Assembly: GCA_945861435.1 (NCBI GenBank)
Contig: CAMAUX010000025.1
Location: 1-64,000 of the forward strand
Origin: Chthoniobacter flavus
GTDB taxonomy: Bacteria; Verrucomicrobiota; Verrucomicrobiia; Chthoniobacterales; Chthoniobacteraceae
Direction: 5' to 3'
DNA: 64,000 bases
The notes under the pieces were generated by a model. That model had not been told where the DNA came from. It saw only the letters and a program-made list of their open reading frames with translations, and searched no databases. Shown here in pieces: positions 1,082-57,073 of the stretch. Every line of letters starts with the position of its first letter. Position 1 is the stretch's first letter. The position numbers were made by a program, and so were the translations under genes.

Positions 1082-1244
1082 GGGTCCGGGGCGGAAAAAT
1101 GCGATGGGGGCGCTTTCGTTTCTTCGCGCTTCTCGCGCCCCGCCGGGGCGCGTCGCGTGGGGGGATGCGATCCGGTGGTTCCCGCCATCCGCTTTGCGGA
1201 TGGCGTTCACCGACCGGCTAATTTTCTCTCATGCCTCCGGCATG
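1082..1244. repeat. Three-hairpin intergenic element, copy 1
   Basis: This ~160 bp non-coding unit recurs at 9131-9294, 10517-10676 and, more diverged, 56848-56985. It holds three inverted repeats in fixed order. Hairpin 1 is CGCGCCCC-GCC-GGGGCGCG (1134-1152). Hairpin 2 has a 10-bp stem with a TTT loop (1183-1205) flanked by an outer CGGTG/CACCG pair. Hairpin 3 is CATGCC-TCC-GGCATG (1230-1244). It lies between two convergent genes and runs directly into the 9-bp tandem array at 1251. It resembles REP/BIME-type elements or a structured RNA; the class is unknown. Confidence 0.8.
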
Positions 1245-2926: not shown

Positions 2927-2973
2927 TTTTTTTGGGGGGGGCGGGACGGGAGGGAGGGGGCGGGCGCTCCATG

Positions 2974-3063
2974 GACGACATGGACGACATGGACGACATG
3001 GACGACATGGACGACATGGACGACATGGACGGCGTGGACGACATGGACGACATGGACGACATG
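2974..3063. repeat. GACGACATG tandem array B (10 units)
   Basis: There are nine perfect GACGACATG units with one GACGGCGTG in seventh place. The array lies between the convergent DUF1080 and hydrolase genes, just after an 8-G run. Unlike arrays A and C it has no three-hairpin element beside it. In the rest of the gap (3064-3350) I see nothing that supports a gene. Confidence 0.9.
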
Positions 3064-3350
3064 GACGGGGAGTGTGAAAGGGCGCGCGATGCTTTCACCA
3101 TGCCGTCAGCGCGGTGGTGTGGAGGCTCGGCTTTCTTGAGAGGATTCTTTCTGAGCGCGAGACGTGCTCTCTGGGCAAAGGGAACACTGGGAAGCGCGCT
3201 TCTCCGCGGACGCCGAGAACGACCTCAGAGCGACTCGTACATCGCGCTGCCCATTCCGTGAAATGCGGTGGACGCGCGCACTCAGTTCGGCGCCCTGACG
3301 CCTAGGGTTGCGCTCGGTTGGCCGGTGGCGTGGGCGGGCGCGGTGGGCGG

Positions 3351-5842: not shown

Positions 5843-6751
5843 TCAGTGCTTCGGAAGGAGGCCGAGTCCGCTCATCCATGCCTCCACCAACACGGGCCAG
5901 CGGGTGACTTGATGCTCGGAGGGACGCAGGCCGTAGCCGTGGCCGCCCGTGGGGAAGAGGTGAAGTTCCGAAGGGACCTTGGCGTCCTTGAGCGCGAGGT
6001 AATAGGTGATGGCGGTCTCGGGACGCAGCTTGTCGTCGGCGGTCATGACGAGGAAGGAGGGCGGGGTCTGGGCGTCGATTTTGAGTTCCGGGCTGACGAC
6101 GTTGTCCTTGGCAAGGTAGGCCGGGTAGACGAGGACGGCGAAGTCCGGGCGGCAGGATTCCTGGTCCGCTTTGTCGATGGCGGGATAGGTGCGCTGGGAC
6201 CAGTTGGTGCTGAGCGCGGCGCTGAGGTGGCCGCCGGCAGAGAAGCCGAGGACGCCGATTTTTTTGGGATCAATCTGCCAGCGTGTGGCTTGGCTGCGGA
6301 CGATGCCCATGGCGCGCTGGGCGTCTTCCAACGGCGGAGCGTGGCGGGTGCCTTGCTTGGGCGCCGGGACGCGGTATTTGAGAAGGATGCCGGTGACGCC
6401 GATGGAGTTGAGCCACTGGCAGATTTCGGTGCCTTCGAGGTCGTAGGCGAGGATGTTGTAGCCGCCTCCGGGGCAGATGAGGACGGCGGCGCCGGAGTTG
6501 CGGTCGGCAGGTGCGGGGAAGACGGAGAGGGTGGGATGGGAGACGTTGCCGAGTCGGATGACGGAGTGGTCGTCGGGTTTGGAGGTGTTGCGTTCCTCGC
6601 CGGTGACGGTGTGGTTTTGTGGGGCGTTGGCGGGCCAGAGGGGGAGGGTGTCCTCGGCGTGGGAGAGGGTGGAGGCGAGGGCGAGGGCGAGTGATGCGGC
6701 GTACCGGGTGGTGGTTTGGAGGATGGTTTGGAGGAGGGGGGCGGGGTGCAT
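5843..6751 (-). CDS. Secreted alpha/beta hydrolase/esterase
   Basis: A 302-residue protein with a signal peptide (MHPAPLLQTILQ..., cleavage near SHA/EDT). Hallmarks are the oxyanion-loop motif ICPGGGY, the nucleophile elbow GFSAGGH, an acid candidate in MTADDKL, and the catalytic His in TGGHGYG. This is the COG0657-type carboxylesterase/lipase family, often found in xylan-degradation loci. The longer upstream open frame lacks coding character; the signal peptide decides the start. It lies between another secreted hydrolase and a divergent SUMF1-fold gene. Substrate unknown. Confidence 0.82.
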   Translation of the reverse strand: MHPAPLLQTILQTTTRYAASLALALASTLSHAEDTLPLWPANAPQNHTVTGEERNTSKPDDHSVIRLGNVSHPTLSVFPAPADRNSGAAVLICPGGGYNILAYDLEGTEICQWLNSIGVTGILLKYRVPAPKQGTRHAPPLEDAQRAMGIVRSQATRWQIDPKKIGVLGFSAGGHLSAALSTNWSQRTYPAIDKADQESCRPDFAVLVYPAYLAKDNVVSPELKIDAQTPPSFLVMTADDKLRPETAITYYLALKDAKVPSELHLFPTGGHGYGLRPSEHQVTRWPVLVEAWMSGLGLLPKH

Positions 6752-7130
6752 GGTTCTTAGTTCTTGGTTCTTAGGGGGATGTTTGGAGGAAAAGGGGGGC
6801 CGGGTGGATTGGGGGGGGAGGAATGGCACTGGGATAAAGGGGCTTCGTTGCGGCGTTGGGGGGACGGCGTTGGCAGGAAGACGGATGCAAGGATTGGAGC
6901 CATCGGGCTCCGATGGGGACAGACAAAATGTTGTTGGTTGGGATGTGGGGCGGGAATCGGTGGATGGCGCGTGCGGAGAGGTGGTGGACCTGCGGTGTGC
7001 AGGGAACGCCATGCAGGTGCTTTGGGATCGGATGAACAATAAGTTGCCGGGGGGGGGGGGGGTGGTGTTACACAGGCGATGTTTTCCTCCGTCGGACTGG
7101 CGGTGGGAAACGCATCACCCCGCTGGCATC
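6752..7130. other. 379-bp divergent intergenic region
   Basis: The region separates the esterase (-) from the SUMF1-fold gene (+). Next to the esterase start is a TTCTTAG/TTCTTGG repeat. A run of 14 G lies at 7049-7062, 68 bp before the SUMF1 start codon. No gene is apparent. Confidence 0.6.
7044..7072 (+). promoter_or_regulatory. Poly-G(14) tract in a possible promoter spacer
   Basis: TTGCCG (7044-7049) and TGTTAC (7067-7072) are separated by 17 bp, most of which is the 14-G run (7049-7062). The hexamers match the sigma-70 consensus only 4/6 and 3/6. If this is a promoter, slippage in the G run would change the spacer length and switch expression. The G run is plainly visible; the promoter is inference. 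Confidence 0.25.
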
Positions 7131-9014
7131 ATGAAAAAACTGCTCCCTTCTCTCTGTCTCCTCCTGCTCGCAAGTGTTGGCCCCGCATTCGCTGCTGCGC
7201 CGAGTGGGATCCTCGCCAATCAAGGTAAACTGAAGCCTGTGGTGACGGTGGCGAATTCGTACTCGGAGAAGGTGGTGAAGACGTTTGCGGGCGATGCGGA
7301 CACGGGACCTGTTTATGAGCTGCAGCCCAATGCGGAGAAGGTGGCGGCGAAGGTGGTGGCGTTGATGGGGGATTTCGATTTCAGCAAGATCACCGCGGAT
7401 ACGGAGGTGGCGTTTGCGGTGGGTGACTTCACGTTCCGGGCGATGTTGGGCGAGGCGGGGACGAAGACGATCGCGGCGACGGGCAACGCCCTTTTCAGTT
7501 TCAACGTGCAGGTGCCCGTGCTCGACGTGGATGGGAATGCGAAGTTGGACAAGGACGGGAATGAGACGTTTACCGTGGTGAAGATAGGGACGTTGAGCTG
7601 GGCGTGGAGCGCGTCGGCGAAGACGGTGACCGTGACGCTGGCGGTGGTGATCCCGGGTGGCGGGATTGCGGATGCGGCGGGTGTCACGGGGATCGCGAGC
7701 GTGCAATTTGGGGCGCTTGGGGTGGAGGTTCCGCAGGGTGGGGAGCGTCGGTTTGCGAATTGTCCTGTGCCGGTGGGGATGCAGTTTGGGAGCGTGGCAG
7801 GGAGTCGGGATGCGTTTGTGGGAGGTGTGACTCGGACGCGTTTGGTCAAGATGGCAGGAGCGGAGGCGCCGCAAGTGACGACGAGCGTGGTGCTGGCCGG
7901 TGGAGCGGACACGCGCGGGCCGCAGTTGACGGTGCGCGCACCGGCGAAGGTGGGGGATGGCGAGACGGCGCCGTTGTTTGCGGTGCTGGTGGATCGCGTG
8001 GCGCCGAGTGGTTATTCGACGCCCGGGGCGCTTGGATACGAGGCGCCGGAGGTGGCGGTGTATGTGAACAAGACGCCCGCGGTCGGTGTGGATGCGGATT
8101 TTACGCTGCGTTACAGCGACAGTCGTGGGAATGCGCTGGTGGAGGGTGTGGTGGTTTTGAATGGGAAAGGAACCGGGTATCTGGCGGGGGAGACGGGCGC
8201 GCTGAGTGGCAGCACGCAGACGCTGCGTTTTGTGGCGACGGACTCGGAGGGGAATACGACGACGGTGGTGAAGAGTGTGGTAGTTGTTGCGGGATCTGGG
8301 GGGACGAGCGGGCCGCCGGTGGGTTTTGTGAAGGTGGATGGAGGGACGCTGCCGTCTTCTTCAGACCTTGGAGCTGTGGAAGTGAGCACGTTTTATATTG
8401 GGAAGTATGAGGTGCAGTGGGGGGAGTTTCAGGCGGTGCGGACGTGGGCTGCGTCCAATGGGTATGACATTGGGAATGTGGGTGCGGGGAGTGGGAGCAC
8501 TTATCCCGTGACGGATGTGAGTTGGTATCAGGCGGTGAAGTGGTGCAATGCGCGTAGTCAGAAGGAGGGGAAGACACCTGTGTATACGGTGGGCGGGGCG
8601 GTGTATCGGACAGGGGATCAGGAGCCCGTGGTGAATGCGTCAGCGAATGGGTGCCGGCTGCCGAGTGAGAAGGAGTGGGAATGGGCTGCGCGTGGAGGGA
8701 CGCAGACGCATGGGTACGCGTACAGCGGGAGCAACGACGTGAATGTGGTGGCGTGGTATGGTTCCAACTCTGGCTCTGCAACGCATCTCGTGGGAACGAA
8801 AGCAGCGAATGAGTTGGGGACGTATGACATGAGCGGGAATGTGTGGGAGTGGTGCTTTGACGATTACGATGGTTCGGGCACGGCCCGGGTGATCCGTGGC
8901 GGGAGCGGGTACGACAACGCGGAGAACTGCGCGGTGGGGAGCCGGTACTACAACGCCCCGACCCGCAGCGACAACTTCGTCGGGTGCCGGCTGGCTCTGA
9001 GTTCAGTTCCCTGA
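7131..9014 (+). CDS. Secreted SUMF1/FGE-fold protein with variable C-terminus
   Basis: The 627-residue protein has a clear signal peptide (MKKLLPSLCLLLLASVG, cut near AFA/AAP). Residues about 25-270 are a beta-rich, Ig-like region of unknown function; about 275-390 form a second beta-rich domain shared with the paralog at 3-1031. The SUMF1/C-type-lectin fold fills about 395-627 (YEVQWGEF, LPSEKEWEW, GNVWEWCF, RGGSGYDN, final CRLAL). FGE active-site cysteines are not in place, so an enzyme role is unlikely. The last ~50 codons differ from the paralog and include a long run of codons ending in C (tac, gac, aac, tgc, agc, ttc), the pattern left in diversity-generating retroelement targets. No reverse transcriptase lies in the window. 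Confidence 0.85.
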   Translation: MKKLLPSLCLLLLASVGPAFAAAPSGILANQGKLKPVVTVANSYSEKVVKTFAGDADTGPVYELQPNAEKVAAKVVALMGDFDFSKITADTEVAFAVGDFTFRAMLGEAGTKTIAATGNALFSFNVQVPVLDVDGNAKLDKDGNETFTVVKIGTLSWAWSASAKTVTVTLAVVIPGGGIADAAGVTGIASVQFGALGVEVPQGGERRFANCPVPVGMQFGSVAGSRDAFVGGVTRTRLVKMAGAEAPQVTTSVVLAGGADTRGPQLTVRAPAKVGDGETAPLFAVLVDRVAPSGYSTPGALGYEAPEVAVYVNKTPAVGVDADFTLRYSDSRGNALVEGVVVLNGKGTGYLAGETGALSGSTQTLRFVATDSEGNTTTVVKSVVVVAGSGGTSGPPVGFVKVDGGTLPSSSDLGAVEVSTFYIGKYEVQWGEFQAVRTWAASNGYDIGNVGAGSGSTYPVTDVSWYQAVKWCNARSQKEGKTPVYTVGGAVYRTGDQEPVVNASANGCRLPSEKEWEWAARGGTQTHGYAYSGSNDVNVVAWYGSNSGSATHLVGTKAANELGTYDMSGNVWEWCFDDYDGSGTARVIRGGSGYDNAENCAVGSRYYNAPTRSDNFVGCRLALSSVP

Positions 9015-9130
9015 TCGGCCTGAGCACAGCAGAGGAGAGCGGAGCGGGGTGGCCGGAGCGGCCGCAGCGAGGGACGAGCGGAGGGAGCGGAGGCCATGCC
9101 GCGGAGGGGGCTGTTTTTTGAGGCTGGTGA

Positions 9131-9294
9131 AGGGCCCGGGGCGGAGAAATGCGATGGGGGCGCTTTCGTCTCTTCGCGTTTCTCGCGCCCCTGCGGGGCG
9201 CGGCGTGTGGGGGGATGGGGTCCGGTGGTTCCCGCCATCCGCTTTGCGGATGGCGTTCACCGACCGGCTCATTTTCTCTCATGCCTCCGGCATG
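9131..9294. repeat. Three-hairpin intergenic element, copy 2
   Basis: Same order of palindromes as copy 1: a GC-rich hairpin, the GCCATCCGC-TTT-GCGGATGGC stem with outer CGGTG/CACCG, then CATGCC-TCC-GGCATG at 9280-9294. It follows the SUMF1-fold gene as copy 1 does. The segment from the stop codon to the element (TGATCGGCCTGAGCACAG) also resembles the matching segment after gene 1, so gene end and element probably duplicated together. The 12-bp GACGACATG-type array is absent; a different tandem array follows at 9365. Confidence 0.8.
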
Positions 9295-9364
9295 GAGTGA
9301 GGGCGGAGCGGACAATGCAGGCTGAGTGAATGCCGAGTGCTTCCCGAGTGCCCCCTGGGCGGCT

Positions 9365-9414
9365 GATGGGAGGTTGATGGGAGGTTGATGGGAGGTTGAT
9401 GGGAGGTTGATGGG
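9365..9414. repeat. GATGGGAGGTT tandem array (4.5 units)
   Basis: Four perfect 11-bp GATGGGAGGTT units and a partial fifth lie downstream of three-hairpin copy 2. The rest of the gap up to the toxin gene (9415-9690) shows no supportable gene. Confidence 0.85.
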
Positions 9415-9690: not shown

Positions 9691-10125
9691 TTACCCCTTC
9701 AGATGAAAGAAGGAGAGGCCGGTAAATTCGCGGTAGTCTTTATCGAAAGAAACCAGGCGTGACCGCGTCGTGAAGGCGACGGCGGCAAGCCATGCATCGG
9801 TAAGCCGGGATGGTGAGAAGCCTGTTTTCTCCGACCACATCCGCATGCGGGCCTCCGCTGAATCAGGATCTGCAAGAAAGGTGACTTCCGGCAAATCGAG
9901 GAATGCACGATACGCTTTCCACGCTTGGACGATGGTGAAGGGGGCGCCCTGCATGACGTGACGATTGGTGAGCGATCGCACCGACCCCAGCATCGTCACG
10001 CGTGTGAAAGCGAGACGGGTTGCAGCCTCCTGCTCCCAATAGTGCCGGGCGCGATCATGATGTTCGTGGTCGGGATCCGCCAGCGCGAGCCAGACGTTGA
10101 TGTCCGGCAGATCAACGGCCGGCAT
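9691..10125 (-). CDS. VapC-like PIN-domain toxin
   Basis: This 144-residue PIN-domain protein starts with the strand and first acidic residue (VDLPDINVWLALAD) and has later acidic positions in SRLTDAWLAA and LVSFDKDY, the arrangement of PIN ribonucleases. Known VapC toxins cleave tRNA or rRNA and are held inactive by the co-encoded antitoxin. Length is normal. Its start overlaps the antitoxin's end by 14 bp, showing an operon with translational coupling. The pair sits in a repeat-rich stretch between two three-hairpin elements. Confidence 0.85.
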   Translation of the reverse strand: MPAVDLPDINVWLALADPDHEHHDRARHYWEQEAATRLAFTRVTMLGSVRSLTNRHVMQGAPFTIVQAWKAYRAFLDLPEVTFLADPDSAEARMRMWSEKTGFSPSRLTDAWLAAVAFTTRSRLVSFDKDYREFTGLSFFHLKG

Positions 10126-10369
10126 GGCCCTCCTCCATCGCGAGGATCTCGTTCAAGCGCGCATTGGAAAGTGCGGGATGGGGCTTCCCGGTGGCTTTTC
10201 GGATGAGAGGGAGTTTGCTGCGACGGGGGGCGGATGCCGCGGGTTGTCCGGCGGCAAGACCGGCTTCGATGAGCTGGCAGAGGATTTCCTTTAGTTTGAG
10301 TCCTCTGAGGGCGGCCTCGGCCTTCAGTTTTCGGAAGGTGGAATCGGGGAGGTCGAGGGTGGTTCGCAC
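10112..10369 (-). CDS. VapB-like antitoxin (ribbon-helix-helix type)
   Basis: The 85-residue protein begins MRTTLDLPDSTFRKLKAEAA, typical of ribbon-helix-helix DNA-binding antitoxins (first strand RTTLDLP, then two helices). The C-terminal half is basic and then acidic and should wrap the PIN toxin encoded just downstream. Family members bind their own promoter as a complex with the toxin; the operator would lie in the AT-richer stretch upstream of 10369, but I could not define it. Confidence 0.8.
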   Translation of the reverse strand: MRTTLDLPDSTFRKLKAEAALRGLKLKEILCQLIEAGLAAGQPAASAPRRSKLPLIRKATGKPHPALSNARLNEILAMEEGHAGR

Positions 10370-10516
10370 AAAAACATTTTTACATCAAATGGCGCGCTGT
10401 CAATCGGGAGGGCCGTTCGCTGCGCCATGCGCCCGGGCGTAATGGTGCGAGGCGCTTCCTTGTGGATGTCGATTCCGAGGAGCTCGGCAGCCGGTTGATG
10501 GCAGTGCTCCGTGGCT
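10370..10516. other. Upstream region of vapBC
   Basis: This 147-bp stretch precedes the antitoxin and the third three-hairpin element. It contains an A/T-rich patch right at the antitoxin start (10370-10388). No operator palindrome could be assigned by eye. Confidence 0.4.
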
Positions 10517-10676
10517 GAGCGGGGTGGGAAAATGCGATGGTGGTGCCTTCGTCTCTTCGCGGTTCTCGCGCCCCGCCGGGGCGCGTCGTGTGGGGGGATG
10601 GGGTCCGGTGGTTCCCGCCATCCGCTTTGCGGATGGCGTTCACCGACCGGCTAATCGCTCCCATGCCTCCGGCATG
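10517..10676. repeat. Three-hairpin intergenic element, copy 3
   Basis: All three palindromes are present, with the last CATGCC-TCC-GGCATG at 10662-10676. Base identity to copies 1 and 2 is high across the whole unit, not only in the stems. It lies between vapBC and the aminotransferase gene and runs into the compound 9-bp array at 10692. Confidence 0.8.
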
Positions 10677-10691
10677 GCGGAGGACTCCATG

Positions 10692-10848
<157 letters not shown>

Positions 10849-40583: not shown

Positions 40584-43500
40584 TCAGGGTTTGGTGAGGT
40601 AGGCGAAGAAGTCGCGCAGTTCGGTGTCGCTGAGTGCGTCGAGGAGTCCCTCTGGCATGAGGGATACGGGCGAGGCTTGGAGCGATGCGATGCGTTCGGC
40701 GGCGATGACGGAGCGGGTTCCCGCGAGGTCGACAAGGGTGACGGATGCGGCGCTTTTTTCCGCAACGAATCCGGTGAGGATCTGGCCGTCGGTGGTGCGC
40801 AGGGTGAAGGCGGTGTATTCCTCGCGGATGCCGAGGCTGGGGTCGAGGATGGCGGGGAGGAGGAAGTCGAGGTTGGAGCGTTCGTAGCCTGAGAGGTCGG
40901 GACCGATGCGGCCGCCTTCGCCGTGGAGGGTGTGGCAACTGGTGCAGAGTCTTGTGAAGAGGGGCTTGCCGGCGGCGGGGTCGCCTTTGGTTGAAGTCGT
41001 GGCGGTGAGCAGGCGGCGGATTTCGTCGATGCGCTGCTGCTTTTGCGCGGGGCTGGGGCGGGACTGGCCGAAGTGTTTTTTGAGGAGGACTTCGCAGCGC
41101 GGATCGTGGAAGCCGGCGATGGTGGCGATGGCGCTCGGGGCGAAGTCTTCACGGCGCAATCCCGCGCCGGAGTCGAGGGCTTCGAGGAGTGGGAGAGCCC
41201 ATTGCTCGCGGGTGCTGAGGGTCTGGGCGATGGCGGCGCGCACGCGCGGGGTGGAGTCTTTTGCAGAAAGGACAAGCTGGGGGCCGAGCGCAGGGTCGTT
41301 GAATGTCTGCAGTGTGCTGAGGATCTCGAGTTGGAGGCGTTCGGCGTTCTGGGTGCGCAGCAGTTCGAGAAGAACGGGGATGCTGCCCGGGATGCGGCGT
41401 TCGCCGAGCAGGGGCAGGATTTTGCGACGTTCAGAGTCCGGGGTTTTGGAGTGGGCGACTTTTTGGAGGGCTTCGGCGGCGGCGTCCGCGAGGCCGAGTC
41501 GCAGCGCGAAGCTGAGCAGCACGGGGGTGTGCGGGCGGGTCGTCCATGCGCGTCCTGCTTCGCGGGTGAGGGGTTCGGGAACGGAGGAGAGAGGGTCGCC
41601 TTGGAGGCCTGCTTCCATGCCGGTGATGAGGGAGTCGGTGATTTCGGGCGAGGGGGATTGGGCGAGAAGATGGGCGGCGGTCGCGAGGTTTTGCGGCGAG
41701 GGTTCCGCGGTGAAGCGCTGGCCGAGTCTGCGCACGAAGTGGGATTGGAAGGTGGGGTTGCGCCAGAGCTGCGGATCCTCGAGCCATGCGAGTGCGGCGT
41801 CGCTGCCGGGGGCGAGTTTGCTTTCAAAAGCCCACCAGAGGAGGAGGGGGATGTGCCGGTCTTCTGCGTCTTCGGTACGGCCGAGGAGTTCGCGGATGAG
41901 GGGTAGTGCGGCGTCTGCGGGCCAGCGTTTGGCGGAGCATGCGAGTTGGCTGCGGACCTGAGCATCGGGTTCCGTGCGTGCAAGGCTGAGGAGGGCGGGG
42001 ACGGCGTCGGGAGGGAGGGTTTTGGGGTCGCCCATCAGGCGGATGGCCCATGCGCGCACTGCGGGTTCGGGATGGGAGAGGGAGCGGATGGCGGTTTTTG
42101 AATCGAAGGCGCCGAGTTGGTGGAGGACCCAGAGGGCTTCGAGGGCGGGGTGGGTGGGGTGGGTGGGGTGGGTGGGGTGGGAGGAGGCAACGTGTTGTTG
42201 AGAGATTGCCTGTCCCTTGGCGACCCCGGCAGGCAGCGCTCGCTCACCTTGTTCCCCCTGCTGCTGAGGCGCACTGCTCTGAGCCGCAGAGAAATTGCCT
42301 GTCCCTAGTGGGCCGAGTGGGCCGCCTAGTGGGCCGCCCTTGGCGCTCTCTCGAGCAGTGGCAGTGGGGGCAGTGGACAAATTGCCTGTCCCTAGTGGCG
42401 GTGGTGGGGGGAGTGGGGGGCTTCCGTTGCTTCCACTGTCCCTGCCGATGTCGATGCCCGGAGAAATTGCCTGTCCCTTAGCGCCCATGTTGTTGAGGGC
42501 TTTGGCGGGTTTCGCCTGGGCTGTGGCATCCGCTTTGGCGCTGGGTGCGGCCTCTGTCGTCGCAGTCGTCGCTGTCGTCGCAGTCGTCGCTGTCGGCGGA
42601 GAGGTCGGAGAGGTCGGAGAGGTCGGAGAGGTCGGAGAAATTGCCTGTCCCTTTCCGGCTTTATCCAGCAGGGAGTGGAGGGCGGGGAGGATGGAGGGAT
42701 CGCGGCGTTCGGATAGGAGGCGGACGGCGGTCTGGCGAAACCATTTGTTCGGGTGCTCGAGGGTGCGCAGCAGTTCGGCGTTGGATGCGCGGCCAAGGTC
42801 GAAGGGCGCGGCGGGTTTTGCGCCAGCGGCCCGGAGACGGTAGACGCGGCCGTGTTCGTGATCCCATGTGTCGCGCGGGTCGACATGGGTGAGGCGCGAG
42901 TCGTACCAGTCGGCGATATAGAGCGCGCCGTCGGGGCCGGTCTTGGTGTCGACGGGGCGGAACCAGCGGTCGTCGGTTTCGAGGAGGGCGGCGGAGTCGC
43001 GGGTCTTGAAGGAGGAGGTGTCCGGGAGCAGGTCGCTTGCGAGGACGCGGTTGGTGAGGGACATGCTGGCGATGAGACGGCCTTCGAGGGAGGGGATGGC
43101 GCCGCCTTCGTAGATGAGCATGCTCTGGGCGAAGCGTGGCTGGTACCCCTCGCTGGGCATGTGCTCAAACCAACCGAAGGAGTAGGGGTTGAGGAGAGGT
43201 CCGTGCTTGGCCCAGTTCTTGATGTACGCGCCGCCTTGGACGTAGTGGAGGCCGCGGGTGCTTCCATGGTTGGTGCCGGAGAAGGCGCGTCCGAGTTGGT
43301 CGAACTCGAGGCTGAAGGTGTTGCCGCCACCCTCGGCGAAGACCTCGAAGGCGTGGGAGTCGGGATGGTAGCGCCAGATGGCTTGGCCCAGAAAGTGGAT
43401 GCCCTGGATGGTGGAGGTGGTGGTGCTGCCTTGGGCGCCGTAGATCCAACCGTCCGGTCCCCATGCGAGGCTGCTGGCGACGGCATGGGTGTCCTCGAGG

Positions 43501-56847: not shown

Positions 56848-56985
56848 CTGGGGCTTTGTGGCAGAGCTTCTCGCGCCCGCTGCCGGGGCGCGTCGTGTGG
56901 GGGGATGGGAACCGGCGGTTCCCTGCGTCCGCGTTGCGCGGACTGCGGTCACCGACCGGCTAATTTCTTTCATGCCACCGGCATG
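56848..56985. repeat. Three-hairpin element, copy 4 (diverged)
   Basis: This copy lacks the 5' AATGCGATGG stretch but keeps the order: GC hairpin, middle hairpin with stem GTCCGCG-TTG-CGCGGAC, then CATGCC-ACC-GGCATG (56971-56985). In the middle stem an A-T pair of copies 1-3 has become G-C, so both sides changed together. It is followed by a 9-10-bp tandem array. Confidence 0.7.
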
Positions 56986-56990
56986 ACAGC

Positions 56991-57065
56991 GGTGAGGGGC
57001 GGTAAGGGGCGGTGAGGGCGGTGAGGGCGGTGAGGGCGGTGAGGGCGGTGAGGGCGGTGAGGGGC
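56991..57065. repeat. GGTGAGGGC tandem array
   Basis: GGTGAGGGGC and GGTAAGGGGC lead into five perfect GGTGAGGGC units (57011-57055) and a final GGTGAGGGGC. The array begins 5 bp after copy 4 of the three-hairpin element and ends 8 bp before the TGT stop codon. Confidence 0.88.
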
Positions 57066-57073
57066 GGTGGTGG

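Follow-up and report, generated by a model that had tools for sequence, protein, structure and literature searches.

What is the intergenic unit of three successive hairpins that recurs along the 64-kb stretch of Chthoniobacter flavus DNA analysed here (the window)? A sequence-only reading had placed copies at 1082-1244, 9131-9294, 10517-10676 and 56848-56985, and all four are real, lie on the + strand and show the constant hairpin order it stated (4 of 4). The unit of ~160 bp stands as an element but not at that length: the common core is about 116 bp, and the first ~48 bp of the interval given for copy 1 belong to an extension on the upstream side, up to about 78 bp long, which only copies 1 to 3 and one C91 copy have in common and which falls outside the general element. 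R1, a covariance model made from 25 own-genome copies with a sequence alignment and a hand-written structure, scores the four at 115-129 bits and finds no further full-length copy in the window; apart from the four and their reverse complements it has a single weak match there. All four are intergenic, copies 1 and 2 between convergent genes. Their parts are as follows.

1051 to 1129, + strand: upstream extension of the copy-1 subfamily, an 88% match to 9101-9179 and a partial match to 10520-10561, also present in C91
1130 to 1244, + strand: core of copy 1, 116 bp, R1 score 128.6 bits, fold z of -6.1 (+ strand) and -5.9 (- strand)
1134 to 1152, 1172 to 1217 and 1230 to 1244: hairpins 1, 2 and 3 of copy 1, the third being CATGCC-TCC-GGCATG
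1218 to 1221: REP-like foot of hairpin 2 in copy 1, CTAA on the + strand and TTAG on the - strand
9180 to 9294, + strand: core of copy 2, R1 score 118.7 bits, folded as single-stranded DNA
9184 to 9202, 9222 to 9267 and 9280 to 9294: hairpins 1, 2 and 3 of copy 2, with the foot TGAG on the - strand of 9268 to 9271
10563 to 10676, + strand: core of copy 3, R1 score 126.6 bits, folded as single-stranded DNA
10567 to 10585, 10605 to 10650 and 10662 to 10676: hairpins 1, 2 and 3 of copy 3, with the foot TTAG on the - strand of 10651 to 10654
56868 to 56985, + strand: core of copy 4, R1 score 115.6 bits, folded as single-stranded DNA
56872 to 56892, 56912 to 56959 and 56971 to 56985: hairpins 1, 2 and 3 of copy 4, with the foot TTAG on the - strand of 56960 to 56963

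Read 5' to 3', the element consists of hairpin 1 (GCGCCCC/GGGGCGC), a linker of about 19 nt, hairpin 2 (an outer stem CCGGTGGT/ACC-G-ACCGG and an inner stem, up to 10 bp), a linker containing CTAAT, and hairpin 3 (CATGCC-TCC-GGCATG). When the window copies are folded as single-stranded DNA, the three hairpins form on either strand (z = -3.0 to -6.1). Selection on structure had been argued from a compensatory change in copy 4, an A-T pair replaced by G-C in the middle stem; the double change is real, sits in hairpin 2 (56912-56959) and is present in 6 of 25 aligned copies, and the argument is now backed by covariation both in the own-genome set and in 93 elements that flank transposase genes, four of them from the Chthoniobacter flavus genome. 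The own-genome set has changes on both sides in 7 of its 31 pairs (17 cells, versus 6.3 in shuffles), and compensatory changes occur in hairpins 1, 2 and 3. Across the 93 flanking elements, which come from several phyla, 91.3% of cells are paired, both sides have changed in 27 of 31 pairs, and the covariation score is 0.315, versus at most 0.029 after partners are slid by 1-3 columns; fitting this alignment to the structure biases it in that direction, but the contrast with the slid versions is large. Compensatory changes this strong are a point in favor of a structured RNA or sRNA gene whose hairpins are selected in the transcript, but the covariation is equally explained by folding of single-stranded DNA, and we propose that base pairing is under selection because an enzyme reads the folded single strand.

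The covariance-model search that the sequence-only reading had put forward, of the whole genome and of related Verrucomicrobiota, yields many copies and further covarying stems, and replaces its four-copy family with a much larger one: the 5.35-Mb genome carries at least 150 full-length copies, about 0.3% of its length (all 150 scored candidates are full-length, the weakest at E = 1e-6). An independent exact pattern for hairpin 2 gives 69 matches, and its reversed control gives 0; all 69 are among the 150, and the list is therefore probably near complete. A DNA search of the whole genome gives 45 matches, with one weak BLAST match (C3:100054) outside the 150. The 150 listed span 56 contigs; 87 of them have no second copy inside 600 bp, while the remainder are clustered, mostly in direct orientation. 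Three congeners have 20, 1 and 7 copies, all lower-scoring, versus at least 150 here, which indicates a lineage-specific expansion. At C92 and C35 (L186, L185) the element is included in tandem higher-order arrays with units of about 220-290 bp; at C35 (L185), elements surround toxin-antitoxin-like genes. Tandem arrays raised the question of an integron attC site, which the three separate hairpins make unlikely.

Searches for an empty site with joined 50-bp flanks returned, at the loci examined, only weak matches, which run through a shared GGGACAGGC-type flank. Nor did a clean empty site emerge from a search for an insertion point among the ends of paralogous FGE-sulfatase genes, some with the element and some lacking it; there a spacer of about 95 bp is common, followed by divergence. 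The window has FGE-sulfatase-domain genes at 9-1031 and 6477-9014, and the 3' end of the latter, with its spacer of about 95 bp, is common to the paralogs C91, C50, C30, C93 and C44. These genes resemble the targets of diversity-generating retroelements, and reverse transcriptase is clearly encoded twice in the genome (C43, C42). The window interval 9691-10370, between copies 2 and 3, has a PIN-domain gene and a probable antitoxin.

A Pfam search finds six Y1_Tnp genes in the genome, one encoding 148 aa and five in open frames of 391-481 aa, and it is the short one that has the element beside it.

C37 (L021), 1408 to 1854, - strand: tnpA, the 148-aa Y1 transposase gene, the genome's only short Y1_Tnp gene

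Three element copies lie on the 5' side of this gene and one on its 3' side, all facing outward so that the flanks are inverted, with 9 bp between the closest copy and the start codon. In the protein, the length of 148 aa and the motifs DHVH, WQ and YILRQEEHH match the signature of subclass 1.2 as defined by Quentin et al. 2018 (about 148 aa, DH[IV]H, WQ, Y-x3-Q-x2-HH; PMC6006769). An AlphaFold2 model of the protein (pLDDT 90) is closest to the TnpA of IS608 and ISDra2, and the TnpA-REP/REP complex 4er8 is also among the structural matches. In the same 2018 paper subclass 1.2 is listed without REP and without IS features (PMC6006769); contrary to that reported absence of REP, subclass-1.2 genes do have flanking repeats here. 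The Chthoniobacter flavus copies adjacent to tnpA score 75.7 and 86.5 bits and are more divergent than most dispersed copies; given that divergence, they are at most putatively cognate to the dispersed majority. The element is absent from all five loci of the long Y1 genes; translation of one of these genes (L022) shows NHVH and YIDLNP, which are motifs of subclass 2.1.

The linkage extends well beyond this genome. Sixty tnpA loci were gathered by protein alone, from sources that include Verrucomicrobia, Geobacter, Lentisphaerae, Planctomycetes and Acidobacteria assemblies, and nearly all the intact genes have Y-x3-Q-x2-HH. R1, despite being built from Chthoniobacter flavus only, gives 89 matches (E <= 0.003) in 36 of the 60 loci, and 86 of the 89 lie within 500 bp of tnpA, though up to 3 kb per side was searched; three of the 60 loci were scored in a separate R1 run and had no match at this threshold. 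Complete elements have two inverted copies around tnpA, with hairpin 1 towards the gene and hairpin 3 outward; the nearest pair is inverted and outward-facing in 16 of the 22 two-sided loci, and upstream of the gene the closest outward-facing copy most often leaves 9-10 bp before the start codon (11 of 24). Some gene-adjacent copies face inward, mostly as parts of dimers. Relatives also yield 14 head-to-head inverted dimers with spacers of 10-40 bp, and gene-less dimers are what two ends without the gene should give. In the flanked enzymes H54, H56, W93, Q94, Y113, Q117, H120 and H121 are invariant; the HUH motif, the tyrosine and the glutamine are conserved. The tnpA loci without an R1 match often still bear flanking inverted repeats, and those of three Bacteroidetes loci (L077, L080, L082) look unlike the element and were not counted as such.

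Element and enzyme also occur together. Among 57 related genomes, 25 have both, 5 the element only, 6 TnpA only and 21 neither (p=4e-6, ignoring phylogeny), and the co-occurrence is also seen inside the family (p=0.002, again ignoring phylogeny); outside the family R1 matches in only 2 of 21 genomes. Of the 30 element-positive relatives, 5 have no subclass-1.2 tnpA, four of these in one genus, and many of the assemblies are incomplete; in the loci examined from the genus g4 genomes of this kind, no other Y1 gene lies beside the element. Genome G006, in which no subclass-1.2 tnpA was found, has identical element copies near contig ends (L156-L159), and these may belong to the ends of an element whose multiple copies were merged during assembly. 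Since relatives lie on either side of a gene for a single-stranded-DNA transposase in many bacteria, the copies are most likely transposon ends that this enzyme spreads. That certain genomes carry copies without the transposase could also mean that the repeats are kept for use by the host, in ending transcription, binding protein or stabilising mRNA, with no present mobility; the position of copies 1 and 2 between convergent genes would suit such roles, and REPs elsewhere show such side functions. Against this stand the expansion in one lineage and the close tie to tnpA in several phyla, which make it a most improbable account, and host use could be a secondary role rather than the origin.

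Probable transposon ends of this kind bear comparison with several known systems, beginning with the REP sequences and REPtrons of TnpA-REP (RAYT) transposases in E. coli and Pseudomonas (PMC6006769, PMC8266576, PMC3116915). The likeness lies in a tnpA gene set amid inverted palindromic repeats, in dispersed copies and inverted dimers, in the HUH/Y1 fold, and, in part, in a four-base foot on the 5' side of a hairpin, which in REPs is a conserved GT[AG]G. On the reverse strand, just 5' of hairpin 2, 89 of the 93 flanking elements have NTAG (TTAG 62, GTAG 23, ATAG 4), and the own-genome copies have mostly ATAG or TTAG; in E. coli the GTAG tag of REP, in the same position, touches the enzyme (PMC8266576). 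The REP/REPtron unit, however, is a single hairpin of 20-50 nt with the foot GTAG, whereas the element is about 90-120 bp with three hairpins and a foot that is mostly TTAG, and the REPtron enzyme is of class 2 (Y-x3-NP), whereas the enzymes flanked by the element are of class 1, subclass 1.2 (Y-x3-Q-x2-HH). These differences bear directly on whether the copies are a canonical GTAG REP/BIME family moved by a class-2 TnpA-REP, as the NTAG foot at hairpin 2, the dispersal, the dimers and the REPtron-like flanking might suggest. We regard that as very unlikely: the Y1 genes of this genome are one of subclass 1.2 and five long ones, none of the five with an element in its locus, the translated long gene carries motifs of subclass 2.1, for which no REP is reported, each unit contains three hairpins, and TTAG outnumbers GTAG. 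In relatives, the frequent head-to-head inverted dimers with short spacers recall REPINs and BIMEs; the Chthoniobacter flavus copies differ in being mostly solitary or in direct tandem. Between the candidates that the sequence-only reading had listed, the REP or MITE reading is thus supported by the dispersed copies, by the HUH transposase gene amid inverted copies, by the inverted dimers in relatives and by the NTAG foot, and the structured RNA comes out weaker.

Insertion sequences of the IS200/IS605 group (IS608, ISDra2) share with the system the transposase fold, the HUH and Y...Q catalytic motif and hairpin ends, and differ in that each end here is one of a pair of inverted three-hairpin copies, and in that the gene has a low copy number and the ends a high one. 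Several near-identical tnpA genes per genome are a mark of IS200/IS605; Chthoniobacter flavus has one subclass-1.2 gene. TIRtrons and TIRYT repeats (PMC3733652) likewise place long terminal inverted repeats by a Y1 transposase and have repeat families genome-wide, but they are found mainly with subclass 2.1 and GGGGWSAS is frequent in them, while the element goes with subclass 1.2, three hairpins and NTAG. Motifs of the type GGGACAGGC surround the five long Y1 genes (L022-L026), are found five times in the window at 42208-42643 and, elsewhere in the genome, directly precede many copies of the element; they resemble TIRtron repeats. The copies might then be a MITE of the genome's other Y1 transposases (subclass 2.1, TIR-type), since AGCCGATAGGGACAGGCAA lies upstream of many of them and the motifs around the long genes are like the GGGGWSAS repeats of TIRtrons (PMC3733652). 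We give this almost no weight, because the four window copies have no GGGACAGGC-type motif nearby, none of the five long Y1 loci has the element, and the association of the element is with subclass 1.2.

The window copies had also been said to fit no described element. This holds to the extent that they fall below every Rfam gathering score (only tRNAs pass in the window), and fails in that their relatives contain a known family, RF01687 (Acido-Lenti-1). A relaxed Rfam scan places RF01687 on window copy 1 as a weak match (14.1 bits, cut-off 37), while elements at the tnpA loci L038, L062, L067 and L071 reach the cut-off and those at L063 and L068 are just below it. The 46-nt consensus of RF01687 equals hairpin 2, a CUAAUU linker and hairpin 3, without hairpin 1, and its matches end on the same outer base as those of R1 at L038, L071, L273 and L279. 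It would appear from these sequence matches that Acido-Lenti-1 corresponds to the part of such elements formed by hairpins 2 and 3. The family is present in 75 of 289 Verrucomicrobiota genomes, often as many copies, arrays and inverted pairs, and a subclass-1.2-like tnpA is found in 50 of the 75 versus 17 of the 214 others (p=7e-23, ignoring phylogeny); 25 of the 75 have no subclass-1.2 tnpA, and many of the assemblies are incomplete. Of 13 RF01687-tnpA pairs, hand-picked for closeness on one contig and so examples that give no rate, 12 face outward at 300 bp or less. Where hairpin 1 would be, upstream of RF01687, 24 of 30 loci have a hairpin versus 6.8 expected, a figure that is supportive only, since its strict stem definition was set after the sequences had been viewed; with a looser definition there is little signal (mean best stem 6.9, versus 6.1 in shuffles).

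Rfam enters this two-hairpin module as an sRNA, and Weinberg et al. 2010 describe Acido-Lenti-1 as "probably RNA" with no cis-regulatory link (PMC2864571). More recently it has been suggested that RF01687 may have a regulatory role next to protease genes in Tannerella (PMC13298647). The literature searched yielded no link between RF01687 and a transposase. An RNA gene nevertheless seems very unlikely to us, given a per-genome copy number of 150 or more, the tandem arrays, the inverted dimers, the short distance and mostly inverted placement of the matches at transposase loci, and the fact that RF01687 is multicopy too and tracks the same transposase. The element is best read as DNA.

One further regularity concerns the DNA beyond hairpin 3, the side on which all four window copies are followed by a minisatellite.

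1250 to 1317: 9-bp minisatellite by copy 1, starting 6 bp from hairpin 3
9356 to 9414: minisatellite array by copy 2, on the hairpin-3 side
10688 to 10848: minisatellite array by copy 3, on the hairpin-3 side
56989 to 57069: minisatellite array by copy 4, on the hairpin-3 side

Genome-wide, 28 of 100 copies have a minisatellite within 150 bp on the side of hairpin 3, against 12 of 98 with one as close on the side of hairpin 1; of 400 control windows, 8 contain one. Since these controls were not limited to DNA between genes, comparing the two sides (p = 0.008) is fairer. Slippage where an end is nicked or folded is one idea for the origin of such polar minisatellites. At 2970-3067 the 9-bp minisatellite found by copies 1 and 3 (CATGGACGA) recurs, there without the element.

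Our explanation, which we hold with considerable confidence, is that the element is a non-autonomous mobile DNA end of REP/TIR type, with three hairpins, mobilised by a subclass-1.2 transposase. To the anatomy, covariation, linkage, co-occurrence and expansion observed here we add recognition, cleavage and movement by analogy with the mechanism of IS608 and TnpA-REP. The substrate would be the element in single-stranded form, for instance on the lagging-strand template, and TnpA would recognise hairpin 2 together with the NTAG foot that lies 5' of it on the reverse strand, cutting nearby through a 5'-phosphotyrosine link. Movement of one end would leave a solitary copy, and movement of two ends without the gene a dimer. 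Hairpins 1 and 3 might, at a guess, help to pair the ends or to place the cut.

More broadly, it is likely, if somewhat less so, that the subclass-1.2 Y1 transposases represent a system of single-stranded-DNA transposition that is widespread in Verrucomicrobiota and in several more phyla; its ends would be a conserved unit of three hairpins with NTAG, and Acido-Lenti-1 would be the outer two-hairpin part of these ends, and no RNA gene. Subclass 1.2, described in 2018 as having neither REP nor IS features, thereby gains a candidate substrate, so that binding and cleavage become directly testable. RF01687, a catalogued RNA of obscure function, is suggested to be a fragment of mobile DNA, and covariation, the usual argument for RNA, can arise from selection on folded single-stranded DNA.
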